Origin: Alteromonas naphthalenivorans
Lineage (GTDB): Bacteria > Pseudomonadota > Gammaproteobacteria > Enterobacterales > Alteromonadaceae
Assembly (NCBI RefSeq): GCF_000213655.1
Contig: NC_015554.1
Coordinates: forward strand, 3,596,001-3,660,000
Direction of reading: 5' to 3'
Length of the DNA stretch: 64,000 nt
This document shows, in pieces, positions 30,608 to 37,775 of this stretch. Under the pieces are notes generated by a model. That model saw only the letters and a program-made list of their open reading frames with translations, made no database searches and was not told where the DNA came from. A program made the position numbers and the translations under genes. Numbering within the stretch: the stretch's first letter is position 1; the number at the start of each line of letters is the position of its first letter.

Positions 30608-30779
30608 CTGTCGATTGTTTAACCATGCTTAATCTGTATCATCGCCGATTTATGCGATAATTAGTATAAATATTCAGTTTTATACACTCAATTGTCAACA
30701 TTATGTCATATCTCAGTGGCTACTATAGGTAAAACTCTTACCCATCTGTTTATTGGTATATCTGTAGCGCTCAAGACCA
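30608..30779. other. Upstream part of the mgsA-argC intergenic region
   Basis: AT-rich sequence between mgsA and the arg control region. A lone ARG-box-like palindrome (AGTAT-AAAT-ATTCA, 30663-30676) is present without a partner at 21 bases. No gene is seen. Confidence 0.4.
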
Positions 30780-30814
30780 AAAATATTTATACATTTTTAT
30801 TGCATAAATATTCC
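30780..30814 (+). promoter_or_regulatory. Pair of ARG-box-like operators
   Basis: Two sites resemble the ArgR half-site pattern TGAAT-N4-ATTCA: AAAAT-ATTT-ATACA (30780-30793) and TGCAT-AAAT-ATTCC (30801-30814). Their centres are exactly 21 bases apart, the standard spacing of ArgR box pairs. A TATAAG at 30816 may be the -10 box, so bound ArgR would cover the promoter. Each site has mismatches, so this is a good but not certain call. Confidence 0.6.
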
Positions 30815-30886
30815 ATATAAGTAAACTAGTCGACGGTTAAGGCATCCATCCCATTTTTAGGGTTGATACAGACACAGGAAGCACTG

Positions 30887-31012
30887 ATGACACAACCAAC
30901 TCTCGTTCGTGGTAGTAATACTGGGAACGTCAATGAGTTAACCACTCCCCTGGATAGCTGCACATTGCATTGCTTGCGACGACGAATGTCTGCGATTATG
31001 CTTTTTCGGTAG
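30887..31012 (+). CDS. Putative arginine-rich leader peptide of the arg operon
   Basis: An ATG with AGGAAG five bases upstream opens a 41-codon frame in the argC leader. Arg is at residues 8, 31, 32, 33 and 41; residues 31-33 are three consecutive CGA codons and residue 41 (CGG) is the last before TAG. The C-terminal part reads TLHCLRRRMSAIMLFR. The stop codon ends two bases before the left arm of a long hairpin with a T run. This layout suggests that ribosome position on the leader decides whether the arg genes are transcribed. The ending recalls E. coli MgtL (RRRLKLFR) and loosely SpeFL (HIRR...IM.F), but homology is not shown. No conservation test was possible. Confidence 0.6.
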   Translation: MTQPTLVRGSNTGNVNELTTPLDSCTLHCLRRRMSAIMLFR

Positions 31013-31014
31013 CA

Positions 31015-31096
31015 CACTTTTTACCTTTGTAATGTGGTAGCGGTTAGGCAATGCATTTCGCCAAATCAGTTTACAAAGGTAAAAAGTGATTTTTTT
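31015..31096 (+). terminator. Leader terminator (putative attenuator) before argC
   Basis: CACTTTTTACCTTTGTAA (31015-31032) pairs perfectly over 18 bases with 31071-31088 across a 38-base loop, and a run of seven Ts follows (31090-31096). GGTTAGGC / GCCAAATC can partly pair inside the loop. The T run ends 23 bases before the argC ATG. A terminator here, right after a leader ORF, fits an attenuator. I did not find a clear competing antiterminator by eye. A terminal-inverted-repeat element is an alternative reading. Confidence 0.7.
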
Positions 31097-31119
31097 CTCC
31101 ATTTATTGAATTTCTCATT

Positions 31120-32133
31120 ATGTATAACGTATCGATTATTGGTGCCAGTGGTTACACCGGCGCACAGCTAGTTCAATTAGTTCATCAACATCCTGCTTTG
31201 TCGCTTGAGGGTACTTATGTTTCAGAAAACAGTGCCGATGCGGGAAAAAACATTGCGGCTCTTCATGGCAACCTAGCACACCTCAACTATACGTTGACGC
31301 CTATTAGTAATGACATATTAGTAGAGTTGGCGACGGAGATGGACTTCGTATTACTGGCCACGCCACATGAAGCCAGCCACGATTGGATGGAAACCTTGTC
31401 TGCGGGCAAAGCAAAAATACTCGACTTATCTGGTGCGTTTAGAATTAAAGATACCCAAGTCTTTGAGCAGTTTTATGGTTTCCCTCATACCGCAACAACA
31501 AGTTTGAAAAAAGCGATATACGGGCTGGCTGAATGGTACGAAGACGATATTGCACAAGCCGATATTATTGCCGTACCTGGCTGCTACCCAACTGCGAGTT
31601 TGTCAGCGCTAAAACCTTTGGCTGCGAGTGGCCTATTAGATGATGCGGTTCGCCCTGTGATCAATGCGGTATCGGGTGTATCCGGTGCCGGCCGAAAAGC
31701 CAGCCTAACGTCAAGCTTCTATGAAGTGAGCTTGCAAGCTTATGGTGTGCTCGGTCATCGCCATACGCCAGAAATTGAAGCTTATTTAGCGACACCGGTT
31801 ATATTTACACCTCATTTAGGCAACTTTAAACGGGGCATACTTGCCACTGTTACCGTTAAGCTTAATCAAGGAGTGACTAGCGCTCAACTAGATGCTGCAT
31901 TTACCGAAGCTTATGCTAATGCGCCAATAGTAAGGTTACGTGCTAGCTTCCCCAAAATTGACGATGTGGCGCATACGCCTTTTGTTGATTTACACTGGAA
32001 GTTTGATGAAGCATCTGGTTATGCAGTTATTACGGCTGCTATCGACAACGTCATGAAGGGGGCAGCATCGCAGGCAATTCAATGCCTTAATATTATGACT
32101 GCCCAACCGGTTGAAACAGGACTCGTGCAATAA
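31120..32133 (+). CDS. argC: N-acetyl-gamma-glutamyl-phosphate reductase
   Basis: ArgC reduces N-acetylglutamyl phosphate to the semialdehyde, the third step of arginine synthesis. The 337-residue protein has the NADP motif [12 protein letters not shown] at its start, the catalytic Cys155 in [10 protein letters not shown], and [11 protein letters not shown] with the conserved His pair. It lacks a strong ribosome site, which may matter for control by the leader upstream. It is the first gene of argC-B-F-G-H-A; argB overlaps its stop by one base. Confidence 0.96.
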
Positions 32134-32939
32134 TGAACAGTTCACCTGTAGTAATTAAAGTAGGTGGCGCGTTGCTAGACGACGCAGCCGCAATGCAAAA
32201 GCTATTTTTAAGCATTAAACAAGTTAGCGAATCGCGCCCTGTTGCCGTGGTTCACGGTGGCGGCCCTTTGGTTGAAACCCTGATGGCAAGTTTAGGTTTA
32301 GCAAGCACCAAAATTGATGGTCTTCGGGTAACGCCTGATGAACATATGCCTTATATCTGTGGTGCGTTGGCGGGAGCGGCAAACAAACAACTATGTGCTG
32401 CGGCGATTGCCTCAGGATTAACGCCCGTCGGCCTTTCTTTACTTGATGGCAATATGGTAGTGTGCCAACCGATGGCACAGAAGTATGGCGCTGTAGGTAT
32501 TCCTTCAACTGCCGATGCTTCTTTCCTTAAGAGTGCGCTAGCGCAAGCCACATTACCGATAATAAGCTCAATTGGCAGCAGCCCTGAAGGGCGTTTGTTA
32601 AATATAAACGCAGATCAAGCCGCCACTGTCGTTGCCGAGTTGCTTGATGCTGAATTGCTGTTGTTATCGAACGTTGATGGCGTACTTGATGCTGATAAGC
32701 AGCTTATTGAAGTGCTTGAGCAAGACTCAATTGCCGAGCTTGCAAAAGCTGGGGTAATTACTGATGGTATGAAAGTTAAGGTAGATGCCGCGTTGCAGTC
32801 TGCCAATACCCTTGGACTCCCTGTTTATATTGCTAGCTGGACAGCGGACATTACTGACATTTTAAATAAGATTACGGGCACGCAGATATTACCTAAATCG
32901 CAAGCACCGGAACATGGCGTACTAGGAGACGCATTATGA
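32133..32939 (+). CDS. argB: Acetylglutamate kinase
   Basis: ArgB phosphorylates N-acetylglutamate, the second step of arginine synthesis. The 268-residue amino-acid-kinase fold protein has [11 protein letters not shown] at its start, [12 protein letters not shown], and [17 protein letters not shown] with LSNVDGVLD. Its length matches the short, arginine-insensitive E. coli type (258) rather than the long feedback-inhibited form, as expected with a separate ArgA. It starts in the argC stop codon (TAATG) and its own end overlaps argF by four bases. Confidence 0.96.
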
Positions 32940-33847
32940 AACAAGACCTACTGACTTTTTCCAATTGGACACCCGAAGCAATGCATAAGTTGTTGAATTT
33001 GGCTGTTGAAATTAAACAATCACCTTCAAGCTACAGCAATGTATTAGCCGGAAAATCGGTAGTCGCCTTGTTCGAAAAGCCTTCTTTGCGTACCCGTGTC
33101 AGCTTCGATATTGGTATTAACCGCTTAGGCGGCCACATGGTTTATTTAGATAGCCAAGGTGGCAAGCTTGCTGGCCGTGAGGACGCGGTTGATATGGCAG
33201 CTAATCTAGCATGCTGGGCTGATGCTATTGTTGCTCGTGTATTTTCTCACAGCACACTAGAGCAGTTTTCTGCTGCCTCTAAAGTACCTGTAGTCAACGC
33301 ACTGTGCGATAAGTATCACCCATGCCAAGCATTGGCCGATTACCTTACCGTATTTGAACGTTTTGGTAAGACCCAAGGCATTACCATGGCCTACATTGGT
33401 GATGGCAATAATGTGACTCACTCTTTGTTAATTGCAGGCGCGTTATTAGGATGCAATCAAGTAGTGGTTACCCCTGAAGGTCACGAATGTGATGCCGAGA
33501 TTGTCGCGCATGCTAAAAAGCTTGCCGAGCAAACTGGCGCAACTATTGTTGAAAGCTATGATGTTAGCGCAGCCGACGGTTCTGACGTTATTTACGCTGA
33601 TACCTGGTTGTCGATGGGTGACGAAACACCGCTGGCTGATATCAAAGCGAAGTTTATGCCTTACCAGGTGAATGAAGCGTTGATGGAATCTACCGGTGCA
33701 AGCTATGTAATGCACTGCCAACCGGCACACCGCGACCTAGAAATTACAGGCTCGTTGATTGATAGCGACAAGTCGTTATTGATGCAACAAGCCGAAAATA
33801 GAATGCATGGCCAAAACGCCATTCTCACTCAATTATTAAGTGCCTAA
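32936..33847 (+). CDS. argF: Ornithine carbamoyltransferase
   Basis: ArgF joins ornithine and carbamoyl phosphate to give citrulline. The 303-residue protein has the carbamoyl-phosphate motif [11 protein letters not shown] (family SxRTR), [28 protein letters not shown], and [12 protein letters not shown] carrying the ornithine-domain Cys. The order argF after argB and before argG is typical of Alteromonadales and Vibrionales arg operons. Overlap with argB is ATGA, so translation is coupled. Confidence 0.96.
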
Positions 33848-33861
33848 GAGGACTCTTTTAG

Positions 33862-35067
33862 ATGCAAAACGTAAAGAAAATCGTACTCGCCTATTCAGGT
33901 GGTCTTGACACTTCAGCCATCATTCCATGGCTTAAAGAAAACTATAACTGCGAAGTCGTTGCCTTTGCGGCCGATGTCGGCCAAGGCGACGAAGAGCTTG
34001 AAGGCTTACACGAGAAAGCGATTGCTTCTGGTGCTAGCGAATGTCACATCGTTGACTTGAAAGAAGAGTTCGTACGCGAATACATCTATCCAACGATTAA
34101 AACCGGTGCGGTATACGAAGGTGAATATCTACTAGGTACGTCTATGGCGCGCCCTGTTATTGCAAAAGCTCAGGTAGAAATTGCCCTTAAAGTAGGTGCA
34201 GATGCACTTTGCCACGGTTGTACGGGTAAAGGTAACGACCAAGTACGTTTTGAAAGTACGTTTGCAGCCCTTGCACCACAGCTTACGGTAATTGCGCCAT
34301 GGCGTGAGTGGGACATGGTATCTCGTGAAGACCTATTAGCTTACTTAGCTGAACGTAATATCGAAACCACAGCGTCTGCTACCAAAATTTACAGCCGCGA
34401 TGCAAACGCATGGCATATTTCTCACGAAGGTGGGGAATTAGAAGATCCATGGCAAGAGCCTACTAAGCAAATATGGACGATGACGGTTGACCCAGAAGAT
34501 GCACCAGATGCGCCAGAACGCGTCACGCTTTCTTTCAACGAAGGTGAACTTACTCACGTTGACGGTGAAGCTTTATCGCCTTACCAAGCGTTGGTTAAGC
34601 TAAACACAGTGGCAGCTGCACATGGCGTTGGCCGTATCGACATTGTTGAAAACCGTTTGGTTGGCATGAAGTCTCGTGGTTGTTATGAAACACCAGGGGG
34701 CACGGTAATGCTTAAAGCATACAAAGCCCTTGAAACGATGGTGCTTGATAAAGCCGCGCTTAAATACCGTGAGCAAATTGGCCTTGAGTTCTCGCACGTA
34801 ATGTACGACGGCCGTTGGTTCACTGCCTTAAATGATGCCTTACTAGCGGGCGCAGAATCTTTCGCTAAGAAAGTGACTGGCGACATTGTAGTGAAGCTTT
34901 ATAAAGGTCAGGCTACTGTTACTCAACGCCGTTCACCGAACAGCCTTTACTCTGAAGATTTTGCTACCTTTGGTGCAGATGATGTTTACGACCAAAAACA
35001 CGCTGAGGGCTTTATTCGCCTATTCAGTCTTTCAAGTCGTATTGCTGCATTGAAAAATCAAGGTTAA
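33862..35067 (+). CDS. argG: Argininosuccinate synthase
   Basis: ArgG condenses citrulline and aspartate using ATP. The 401-residue protein is the short bacterial type, with the P-loop-like [16 protein letters not shown] at its start, [13 protein letters not shown], and [17 protein letters not shown]. It is 14 bases after argF. Codon use looks highly adapted (few rare codons), consistent with strong expression. Confidence 0.97.
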
Positions 35068-35077
35068 GGAGTAACAC

Positions 35078-36460
35078 ATGGCATTGTGGGGTGGTCGATT
35101 CGAATCAGGCGCTAGTAGCATGTTCAAGCAGGTTAACGATTCGTTGCCGTTTGACCAAGTGATGGCAAGCCAAGATATTCAAGGCTCTATTAGTTGGTCT
35201 CGTGCGCTGCAAAAAGCAGGCGTACTGACCACAGACGAACAAGCACAACTTGAAGGTGCACTGAACGATTTAAAAGCAAAAGCTGACGCGGGTGAACTAG
35301 ACTTTAACGCTTCTAGCGAAGAAGACATTCATAGCTTTGTTGAGTCTGCACTTATTGAGCAGCTTGGTGACATTGGTCGTAAATTACATACGGGCCGAAG
35401 CCGTAACGATCAGGTAGCTACAGATTTTCGCTTGTGGGTACGTGAACATATTGCGTCACTTCGTAGCGATGTAGTGGCAGTTATTCGCTCACTCCTTAAT
35501 GCCGCAAGTCGTCACCAGGAAGCCATTATTCCTGGTTACACGCACTTACAACGTGCTCAGCCTTTACACTTCGCCCACTGGTGCTTAGCGTATGTTGAAA
35601 TGTTCAAGCGCGATTTAAGCCGCTTAGACGATTTAAAAGTACGTATGAACCAGTGCCCATTAGGCTCTGGTGCATTAGCGGGTACGACTTATCCTGTGGA
35701 TCGCCACGCGATTGCAACCGAGTTAGGCTTTGACTCGCCATGCTTAAACAGCCTTGATGCTGTTTCAGATAGAGATTTCGTACTAGAGCTATTGTTTGTC
35801 GCGAGCACCAGCATGATGCACTTGTCTCGCGTGGCTGAAGACATGATTTTCTATAACTCTGGTGAAGCGGGCTTCTTGCAGCTTGGCGATAGCGTAACCT
35901 CTGGTTCTTCACTAATGCCTCAGAAGAAAAACCCTGACGCATTAGAGCTTATGCGCGGCAAATGTGGCCGTGTATTCGGTTCACTACAAGCCTTGCTTGT
36001 GACTATGAAGGGCTTACCTCTTGCGTACAATAAAGATATGCAAGAAGACAAAGAAGGCGCGATCGACACGGTAAACCAATGGCACATTTGTTTGTGTATT
36101 GCTACCGAGGTGCTCGATTCATTACAACTTAATGAAGACCGCTGCCGTGAAGCTGCCACACAAGGCTTCGCTAACGCGACTGAGCTTGCCGACTACTTAG
36201 TAGGCAAGGGTATTCCGTTTAGAACGGGTCATGATATTGCCGGTAAAGTGGTACTAGAAGCCATTGAAGCAGGTTGCGCGATTGAAGACTTACCTTTAGC
36301 TAGCCTACAAGCGGTATGCGATAAAATTGAAGATGATGTTTATACCGTATTGCAATTAGAGTACGGCGTAAATCAGCGCAATATATTAGGTGGCACTAGC
36401 AAAGAAACAGTGACTAAAGCACTGTATCAAGAGCTAGAAAACCTAGATAAGCAAGGGTAA
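35078..36460 (+). CDS. argH: Argininosuccinate lyase
   Basis: ArgH splits argininosuccinate to arginine and fumarate. The 460-residue fumarase-superfamily protein has ALWGGRFESGASSMF at its start, the DIHSFVE and TGRSRNDQVATDFRLW segments, GYTHLQRAQP and the signature loop GSSLMPQKKNPD with the catalytic Ser. Unlike the argHA fusion of Moritella and Vibrio relatives, it ends here, and the acetyltransferase is a separate gene four bases downstream. Confidence 0.97.
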   Translation: MALWGGRFESGASSMFKQVNDSLPFDQVMASQDIQGSISWSRALQKAGVLTTDEQAQLEGALNDLKAKADAGELDFNASSEEDIHSFVESALIEQLGDIGRKLHTGRSRNDQVATDFRLWVREHIASLRSDVVAVIRSLLNAASRHQEAIIPGYTHLQRAQPLHFAHWCLAYVEMFKRDLSRLDDLKVRMNQCPLGSGALAGTTYPVDRHAIATELGFDSPCLNSLDAVSDRDFVLELLFVASTSMMHLSRVAEDMIFYNSGEAGFLQLGDSVTSGSSLMPQKKNPDALELMRGKCGRVFGSLQALLVTMKGLPLAYNKDMQEDKEGAIDTVNQWHICLCIATEVLDSLQLNEDRCREAATQGFANATELADYLVGKGIPFRTGHDIAGKVVLEAIEAGCAIEDLPLASLQAVCDKIEDDVYTVLQLEYGVNQRNILGGTSKETVTKALYQELENLDKQG

Positions 36461-36464
36461 TCAC

Positions 36465-37775
36465 ATGGTGCTTGCCCATCATGACGGCGTTAAACTTTTC
36501 AGAAGTTCACTGCCGTATATCAATGCTCATCAAGGGAAAACCTTTGTTTTGATGTTCGGTGGCGAAGCCATTGAACATCCTAACTTCCCCAATATTATTC
36601 ATGACATTGCCCTGCTGAATACCTTGGGTGTTCGCGTGGTAGTGGTCCATGGTGCACGCCCTCAGATTGATCAACGTGTTGCGCTTCGCAATATTGAAGG
36701 TCGATTTGAACATGGCGTGCGTATTACCGATAAGCAAACCCTAGAGTGCGTTAAAGATGCCGCAGGCTCTGTGCGCTCACAGGTAGAAGCCCTACTTACC
36801 ATGGGACTGCCTAATTCACCGATGCATGGCGCACAAATTCGCGTGTGCTCAGGTAACTTGGTCGTTGCTAAGCCTATGGGTGTAAGAAACGGTATTGATT
36901 TTGAGAATACCGGCATGGTTCGTCGTATTGATACCACGGGTATAAATGACCACCTGAACGATGGCTCTATTGTGCTGCTCTCCCCTATGGGGTATTCCGC
37001 TACAGGGGAAGTATTTAATCTTTCCCATGAAGATGTAGCAACCCAAGCGGCCATTGCCCTTAAAGCTGACAAGCTTATTGTATTTTCTAACTTAGACGGT
37101 ATATACAATAGTGAAGAAAAGTTACTTCGCACTATTGAACGCCCTCAGTTAGAGCAGCTTATCTTAAGCGGCAATATTACTACCGAAGATACGGTGTTAA
37201 AGGCGTTAACCACCAGCGTAGCAGCTGGTATACCTCGTGCGCACTGCATTAGTTACGAGAAAGACGGCGCGTTGCTGCAAGAGCTATTCACCCGCGATGG
37301 TACAGGCTCGCTGGTAATGGAGCATCACTACGAACAACTTCGTGCCGCGACTATTGACGATGTGGGCGGCATTTTAAAGCTCATTAAACCGCTAGAAGAA
37401 AGCGGTGTGTTGGTAAAACGCTCACGTGAACGGCTGGAAAGTGAAATCAATCAGTTTATTGTGATTGTTCGCGATGGCATGATCATCGCGTGCGCGGCCC
37501 TTTACCTCTACACCGAAGATGGCTGCGCTGAGTTAGCCTGTGTGGCTACCCACCCTGATTATCGTGGTAAAAATCGTGGTGAGCGAATTTTAGATGAAGT
37601 TAAAATACGCGCCCGCGAAGCGGATATCAATCGTGTATTCGTACTTACCACAGTGACTGCACACTGGTTCTTAGAGCAAGGTTTTGAACACGCAGATATT
37701 AGTGCTCTGCCTGAAGTGAAAAAAGAGCTTTATAACTTTCAGCGAAACTCTAAAGTGTTCACCCTAAACATTTAG
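36465..37775 (+). CDS. argA: Amino-acid N-acetyltransferase (N-acetylglutamate synthase)
   Basis: ArgA makes N-acetylglutamate, the first step of arginine synthesis, and is normally feedback inhibited by arginine. The 436-residue protein has an N-terminal amino-acid-kinase-like regulatory domain (about 1-285: VVVVHGARPQIDQRV, SNLDGIYNSEE) and a C-terminal GNAT domain (about 295-436: LACVATHPDYRGKNRGERIL with the acetyl-CoA loop). Length fits E. coli (443). It closes the arg operon, so the operon holds the first, second, third and the last three steps; argD and argE are elsewhere. Confidence 0.96.
   Translation: MVLAHHDGVKLFRSSLPYINAHQGKTFVLMFGGEAIEHPNFPNIIHDIALLNTLGVRVVVVHGARPQIDQRVALRNIEGRFEHGVRITDKQTLECVKDAAGSVRSQVEALLTMGLPNSPMHGAQIRVCSGNLVVAKPMGVRNGIDFENTGMVRRIDTTGINDHLNDGSIVLLSPMGYSATGEVFNLSHEDVATQAAIALKADKLIVFSNLDGIYNSEEKLLRTIERPQLEQLILSGNITTEDTVLKALTTSVAAGIPRAHCISYEKDGALLQELFTRDGTGSLVMEHHYEQLRAATIDDVGGILKLIKPLEESGVLVKRSRERLESEINQFIVIVRDGMIIACAALYLYTEDGCAELACVATHPDYRGKNRGERILDEVKIRAREADINRVFVLTTVTAHWFLEQGFEHADISALPEVKKELYNFQRNSKVFTLNI

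Follow-up and report, generated by a model that had tools for sequence, protein, structure and literature searches.

Tandem CGA codons in a leader ORF before argC suggest ribosome-mediated attenuation of an arginine operon in Alteromonas and related families

Textbooks present arginine synthesis in enteric bacteria as controlled solely through repression by ArgR. In Alteromonas naphthalenivorans, a short ORF with consecutive arginine codons and a long hairpin lie directly before argC, which raises the question of whether translation of this leader controls entry into the operon. The window analyzed here is a stretch of 64,000 nt of this genome, and all coordinates refer to it. The leader ORF (30887..31012, plus strand) comprises 41 codons encoding MTQPTLVRGSNTGNVNELTTPLDSCTLHCLRRRMSAIMLFR, with the ATG at 30887 and the stop codon TAG at 31010-31012, and is preceded by the Shine-Dalgarno (SD) sequence AGGA (30876..30879, plus strand). 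Three CGA codons (Arg31-33; 30977..30985, plus strand) are presumed to be the regulatory codons, and the last codon is CGG. The terminator hairpin (31015..31088, plus strand) is built from two arms, 31015-31032 and 31071-31088, which form 18 perfect pairs, and is followed by a U-tract of seven T (31090..31096, plus strand). The ATG of argC lies 23 bases further on, at 31120 (31120..32133, plus strand; TIGR01850, 361 bits). The original prediction had described all of these elements, from the ribosome site to the start of argC, and each of them is present where it was placed. Downstream, argB, argF, argG, argH and argA (32133..37775, plus strand) are recognized by NCBIfam matches, and the leader heads argCBFGHA, which covers most of the arginine pathway. 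By eye, the 23 bases past the U-tract (31097-31119) contain no recognizable SD for argC.

ArgR is encoded in the same genome. An ARG-box-like site that matches 8 of 10 positions of TGAATNNNNATTCA is located upstream of the leader at 30801..30814 (no strand assigned), and a second lies at 30663-30676, both by string match alone. Given the ArgR gene and these sites, the leader would be a second layer of control and not a substitute for ArgR. Upstream of carA in the same genome, the stretch inspected contains no CGACGA.

We propose that the leader is likely to be a ribosome-mediated transcription attenuator of the arginine operon, a reading drawn from comparison of sequences. The regulatory codons match the end product of the operon, with tandem CGA codons standing before arginine genes, and the sensor is most likely the slow CGA codon pair, which would report charged tRNA-Arg, and not an arrest peptide. 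When arginine is plentiful, the ribosome would pass the CGA codons and transcription would end at the terminator. Under a shortage of charged tRNA-Arg, the ribosome would wait on the CGA codons and transcription would enter argCBFGHA. Sensing of charged tRNA-Arg by an Arg-codon leader with a terminator before argC had been offered as one possibility in the original prediction, and it appears to be the best reading of the locus.

Conservation within the clade of the window was determined from a scan with ArgC that yielded 64 loci. We used 62 of these (L031-L092, nearly all Alteromonadaceae) and dropped L093 and L094, which belong to other phyla; together with 30 loci from another search, many on the same contigs, they give 72 distinct upstreams. 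An ATG-initiated upstream ORF (uORF) with an in-frame CGACGA is present at 53 of the 62 named argC loci. One locus (L074) contains CGACGA but lacks an ATG in frame with it, and eight (L070, L073, L076-L079, L083 and L089) have no CGACGA. In 48 of 58 clade sequences, AGGA precedes an in-frame ATG. A pyrimidine-rich element inside the ORF (motif A) contains a conserved TCCC, and its spacing from CGACGA falls into two classes, one with 31 or 34 nt and one with 30 or 12 nt (L034 left out); the frame is always kept. Loss of the ORF with the hairpin retained in close relatives had been named as evidence against an attenuator; such loss is found, in more distant relatives, at seven loci (L070, L073, L076-L079 and L083), and these clade members that keep the hairpin without a CGACGA uORF do count against the attenuator reading. 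In L050, the first half of the leader (1753-1881) encodes residues of the Alteromonas macleodii-like type (L037) and the second half those of L051 (Marisediminitalea), a mixture that reflects either recombination or a chimeric MAG assembly.

Substitutions were counted in 19 hand-picked sister pairs. The RR codons show zero changes at about 51 synonymous sites, and CGA is never swapped for another Arg codon. The N-terminal part of the ORF has a pN/pS of 0.52, with 17, 35 and 52 changes at codon positions 1, 2 and 3; this third-position excess fits a peptide that is translated under loose constraint. The segment past RR has a pN/pS of 0.81 and is nearly free to change, and the leaders of relatives end in LIR, PKK, LLQ or just RR, which argues against the likeness of this segment to MgtL or SpeFL that had been pointed out earlier. 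Membership in the MgtL group is not supported, as the gene is argC and not mgtA and the C-terminal segment is not conserved. Neither of two leaders matches Pfam at E values up to 1, including the DUF2618 core (PF10940), and the leader has no match in NCBIfam at E up to 0.001. In the sister pairs, the peptide itself is thus hardly constrained, and CGACGA and motif A are kept as nucleotides.

These data bear on the possibility that the nascent chain stalls the ribosome in the presence of free arginine or ornithine, as happens with SpeFL and with the arginine attenuator peptide of fungi, and acts in this way on the terminator. Alteromonadaceae leaders do show a recurring S/P-x-x-x-Y/F-(5 or 6)-RR pattern, and most Alteromonas leaders have 28-31 codons, of varying amino acid content, between the SD-bearing ATG and RR. 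However, the S/P-x-x-x-Y/F pattern has 0 synonymous and 4 nonsynonymous changes in the sister pairs, Pfam gives no match for the two leaders, and the leaders of other families share only RR, as in MNRFSWFRRDSI, MHTLKLRR, MSHFISLSKHTFNRRR and MKTNFSHNSRRRSHL, with 4-36 codons ahead of it. Since the peptides differ outside RR, the signal would lie in the codons and not in the nascent chain, and we regard an arrest peptide as very unlikely.

Such leaders also occur outside the clade. In a first sample of other families (families carry number labels, f1, f2 and so on), 5 of 15 argC upstreams have a short ORF with CGACGA (L156, L159, L164, L165 and L170), as do all four same-genus leaders beside this sample; L175 is a weak model match that looks coding. 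We then assembled a survey set of 82 argC upstreams (L176-L257), hand-chosen to span 14 families of the order. At positions -180 to -60, CGACGA outnumbers every other hexamer: it occurs in 33 of the 82, in comparison with a mean of 0.27 and a maximum of 2 in 100 shuffles. The next hexamers, each in at most 30 of the 82, are A/T-rich, and several are ARG-box-like. Counted by family, CGACGA does not rank first (6 families vs 11 for ATAAAA). All 33 occurrences are in frame in ATG uORFs, with a shuffled expectation of 0.24 per sequence, and the other two frames of the same sequences give 3 and 4. The other 35 Arg-Arg codon pairs together account for 7 cases vs 33 for CGACGA. The 33 sequences, drawn from about 12 genera, are not independent of one another.

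By family, the leaders are found in f2 (5/5), f6 (10/11), f12 (3/3), f16 (6/7), f25 (4/6) and other members of f1 (5/7); f10 has one CGACGA at -346, outside the counting range. Four further stretches outside the count include a CGACGA uORF in L258, L259 and L261 and none in L260. Outside the order, none of 40 argC upstreams, taken from the better matches of a search, contains a CGACGA uORF (L272 offered only 257 bases). Two features of this distribution weigh against the attenuator reading: the spread is patchy, the leader being absent from 7 of the 14 sampled families (f3, f8, f9, f11, f18, f20 and f21), and the SDs outside the clade are weak, with at least 3 nt in 11 of the 33 uORFs.

The recurrence also narrows the alternatives. 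If the hairpin were an ordinary terminator accompanied by a chance ORF, expression of argC would depend on read-through or on a promoter that has not been seen. Such an arrangement could account for the presence of only 2-3 Arg codons, but recurrent in-frame CGACGA makes chance very unlikely, and the U-tract is just 23 bases from the ATG of argC; this explanation is hardly credible. Alternatively, the terminated leader could be a small regulatory RNA, with motif A as the seed and the terminator as the 3' end. A conserved pyrimidine-rich motif followed by a U-tract terminator is what such an RNA would display, but it leaves the in-frame CGACGA of other families unexplained, and we consider it highly improbable.

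Why CGA is used was considered in the light of codon usage and of work on other leaders. Among 792 Arg codons in 51 long ORFs of the window, the fractions of CGT, CGC and CGA are 0.33, 0.32 and 0.14, CGU, CGC and CGA together make up 80%, and CGACGA is absent from these 51 ORFs. CGA would be read by an inosine-34 tRNA-Arg. According to a study of the Salmonella his leader, CGA is read worse than CGU or CGC, and CGA-containing Arg pairs de-attenuate strongly; AGA and AGG pairs are also slow and de-attenuate too (PMC4046918). A theoretical treatment predicts that the first isoacceptors to lose their charge are those present at low concentration whose codons are heavily used (PMC1183508). By analogy with this E. 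coli and Salmonella work, CGA is probably used as the slowest codon within the most used Arg decoding set (CGU/CGC/CGA). The strict choice of CGA is not fully explained in this way, because the his leader is slowed by AGA and AGG pairs too and because the tandem Arg codons of Salmonella orf34, which sense arginine, work as well with frequent Arg codons as with CGACGA (PMC6386406).

The terminator is the second element that the proposed attenuator requires. In the window, the hairpin has a folding energy of -32.4 kcal/mol vs -13.0 (sd 2.65) in 200 shuffles (z -7.3). A simple terminator scan gives no match in the window; its loop limit is 8, and the loop here is 38. An automatic arm search covered 69 distinct argC upstreams of the clade, with L089 (no match), L091 and L092 left out. 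An arm pair scoring at least 24.5 is found in 62 of the 69, and the remaining seven (L065, L068, L074, L080, L081, L082 and L086) score below 20. An intrinsic terminator before the first structural gene is present in the window, in these 62 clade upstreams and in f16; by eye it is not evident in f6, f12 and f25 leaders.

In f16 and in L091, the CGA run lies in the 5' arm of a hairpin that is followed by a U-rich tail. The terminator scan flags a terminator-like hairpin containing CGACGA in L226 (f16); the L091 hairpin is not flagged, its loop being longer than the scan allows. GTCG followed by a T-rich tail is present in 5 of 6 f16 leaders. In these leaders the CGA codons would themselves be the 5' arm of the terminator-like hairpin, and from this geometry a ribosome waiting on them would block the hairpin directly. 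GTCG with a T-rich tail was also considered as a general rule and rejected: it occurs in 7 of the 33 leaders vs 0.6 expected, but 5 of the 7 belong to f16, which makes it a family trait. Several f6 leaders have a hairpin that starts within the second CGA and the stop codon and has no clear U-tract.

In the clade of the window, the terminator starts 22-48 nt 3' of CGACGA. The original prediction had proposed that a ribosome at the leader stop covers the left arm. Among 58 clade sequences (five without a trusted arm left out), 31 have the end of the stop codon 1 nt ahead of the arm, as this proposal would have it; in the remaining 27 the distance is 14-33 nt, and the proposal does not hold. The constant feature is the tandem CGA pair and not the position of the stop.

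The original prediction had also found no clear antiterminator by eye. In the clade, none of four antiterminator tests beats shuffles. For several Alteromonas species, predicted pairing of the terminator loop with the A..B segment looked strong, at about -21 to -30 kcal/mol, and shuffled loops do equally well; against motif A, 5 of 65 loops tested give p <=0.05. The 3' arm pairs with motif A no better than shuffles, and neither does the 5' arm with the middle segment, where p <0.05 is found in L045, L072 and L077 only. With a ribosome modelled as stalled at RR, pairing of the 5' arm is no better than in shuffles (mean z -0.03 over 22 clade groups). In the A. lipolytica-like group, the modelled stall raises the paired 5'-arm bases from 1.3 to 11.2, a clean switch (with a high z in L088), and in the group of the window it lowers them from 8.3 to 0.5, the opposite direction. 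Pairing of motif A with the leader SD was rejected as well. On the sequence evidence, sensing by the CGA codons appears well supported, but its coupling to the terminator of the window is not.

A further candidate for control of the terminator is the RNA structure around motif A (30945..30961, plus strand; CTCCCCTGGATAGCTGC), which lies inside the ORF and is conserved as nucleotides rather than as peptide. It has 0 synonymous and 4 nonsynonymous changes in the 19 sister pairs, and over wider distances it varies, third positions included (e.g. L062, L074 and L076). RNAalifold, run with 14 and with 26 sequences, predicts a helix, P1, in which GCTAC pairs with GTAGC and which bridges motif A and the terminator base. 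In the window, its 5' strand is GCTGC (30957..30961, plus strand) and its 3' strand GTAGC (31009..31013, plus strand), which overlaps the stop codon. The seven pairs of P1 are standard in 79.7% of cells vs 76.0 shuffled, and six cells are changed on both sides vs a shuffled mean of 1.9; 0 of 500 shuffles reach either value. The true register exceeds all six slid registers on cells paired and on covariation score. By two other measures there is no excess over shuffles (2 vs 1.5 pairs with both-side change and 5 vs 4.7 further pair types), and the two innermost pairs hold in only part of the clade. P1 accounts for the last five bases of motif A only.

Between the strands of P1, a hairpin that contains the CGA codons, P2 (30967..31001, plus strand), is stable in much of Alteromonas, and in Alteromonas proper CGACGA lies in or beside its loop. 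In 31 of 56 sequences, the stretch enclosed by the two P1 strands is more stable than its shuffles (p <=0.05); the window, where P2 is weak (z -0.47), its three closest relatives, Aliiglaciecola and Paraglaciecola are not part of this set. A ribosome waiting at CGA would keep P1 and P2 open in the clade of the window. L073, L076-L079 (Glaciecola and some HTCC2999-like) and L083 keep the hairpin and a motif-A-like stretch with no CGACGA uORF; by eye, their loop GAGTG is complementary to an upstream ACACTC, with which it may form a pseudoknot.

These structures could mean that motif A, P1 and P2 form a ligand- or protein-binding RNA that controls the terminator, with the ORF secondary in this clade. 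The retention of motif A as nucleotides, the prediction of P1 with compensatory changes, and the five loci L073 and L076-L079, where A, P1 and the hairpin persist without the uORF, would all be accommodated. Against it stand the two P1 covariation measures that do not exceed shuffles, the spread of the CGACGA uORF, which is wider than that of A/P1, and searches of Rfam, in which 13 leaders of other families or genera have 0 matches at the gathering threshold and the matches of the window are all below the gathering score. A model of A/P1 (R1) matches 53 of 395 genomes of the family, one match per genome, the weakest not all verified as argC, and 9 of 295 genomes of the order, one of these being outside the family, in ccm genes; the matches include sequences used to build the model. 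We judge control by such an RNA unlikely, and retain attenuation through the CGA codons.

The proposed attenuator resembles trp/his/leu-type attenuation in its leader ORF with cognate codons and its intrinsic terminator before the first structural gene, and differs from it in that the amino acid is arginine, the codons number 2-3 and are always CGA, and no antiterminator is found in the clade of the window. uORFC-8-2, the cysS leader of Rhodobacterales (PMC8632094), likewise has a conserved uORF with a tandem cognate pair in a stem, followed by a U run, but it concerns cysteine and cysS in alphaproteobacteria, and UGC is dominant there while UGU occurs, in contrast to the strict CGA here. orf34/SpeFL of speF (DUF2618; PMC6386406) shares a uORF with two consecutive Arg codons that sense arginine and an extra Arg codon by the stop. 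It has a conserved peptide core, precedes a polyamine gene, acts through Rho and RNase G, and uses rare and frequent Arg codons alike, whereas the peptide of the argC leader is not conserved, its operon is biosynthetic and its terminator is intrinsic. The fungal arginine attenuator peptide (PMC11550727) is also encoded by a uORF before an arginine biosynthesis gene, but there a conserved nascent peptide acts with arginine on translation, in eukaryotes.

Among the literature matches listed, mainly from non-subscription literature, there is no report of an arginine-biosynthesis leader of this type. Leader attenuation, tandem-codon leaders (cysS) and arginine-sensing tandem Arg codons (speF) are already known; what would be new is the combination of arginine and the argC operon, the strict CGA pair, and codons that double as terminator stem in some lineages. 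The presence of related leaders in several families points to a second switch for arginine synthesis that has been overlooked. We give even odds to a broader proposal, in which arginine control in gammaproteobacteria has a major unrecognised layer: within one order, at least six families (f1, f2, f6, f12, f16 and f25, with few cases in f10 and f15) would govern their argC operons through leaders of two to three CGA codons, with the slow CGA pair itself as the sensing element. The CGA codons would double as terminator stem in some lineages, giving a two-state attenuator that has no antiterminator, and in the Alteromonas clade the frozen RNA motif within the ORF would add a further input.

If true, a second translation-linked switch before argC in several families would change how the pathway is modelled, and leaders whose sensing codons are the terminator stem would represent a minimal attenuator. 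With an ArgR gene and ARG-box-like sites present, both control layers can be tested in one organism, and changing CGACGACGA to CGTCGTCGT, AGAAGAAGA or AAGAAGAAG would bear on the reading of CGA. The use of nearly only CGA among 36 possible Arg pairs would likewise be a natural experiment on codon choice. A natural nonsense variant also exists: in L161 (f2), TGA takes the place of the first tandem CGA codon, and five relatives (L176-L180) keep CGA.
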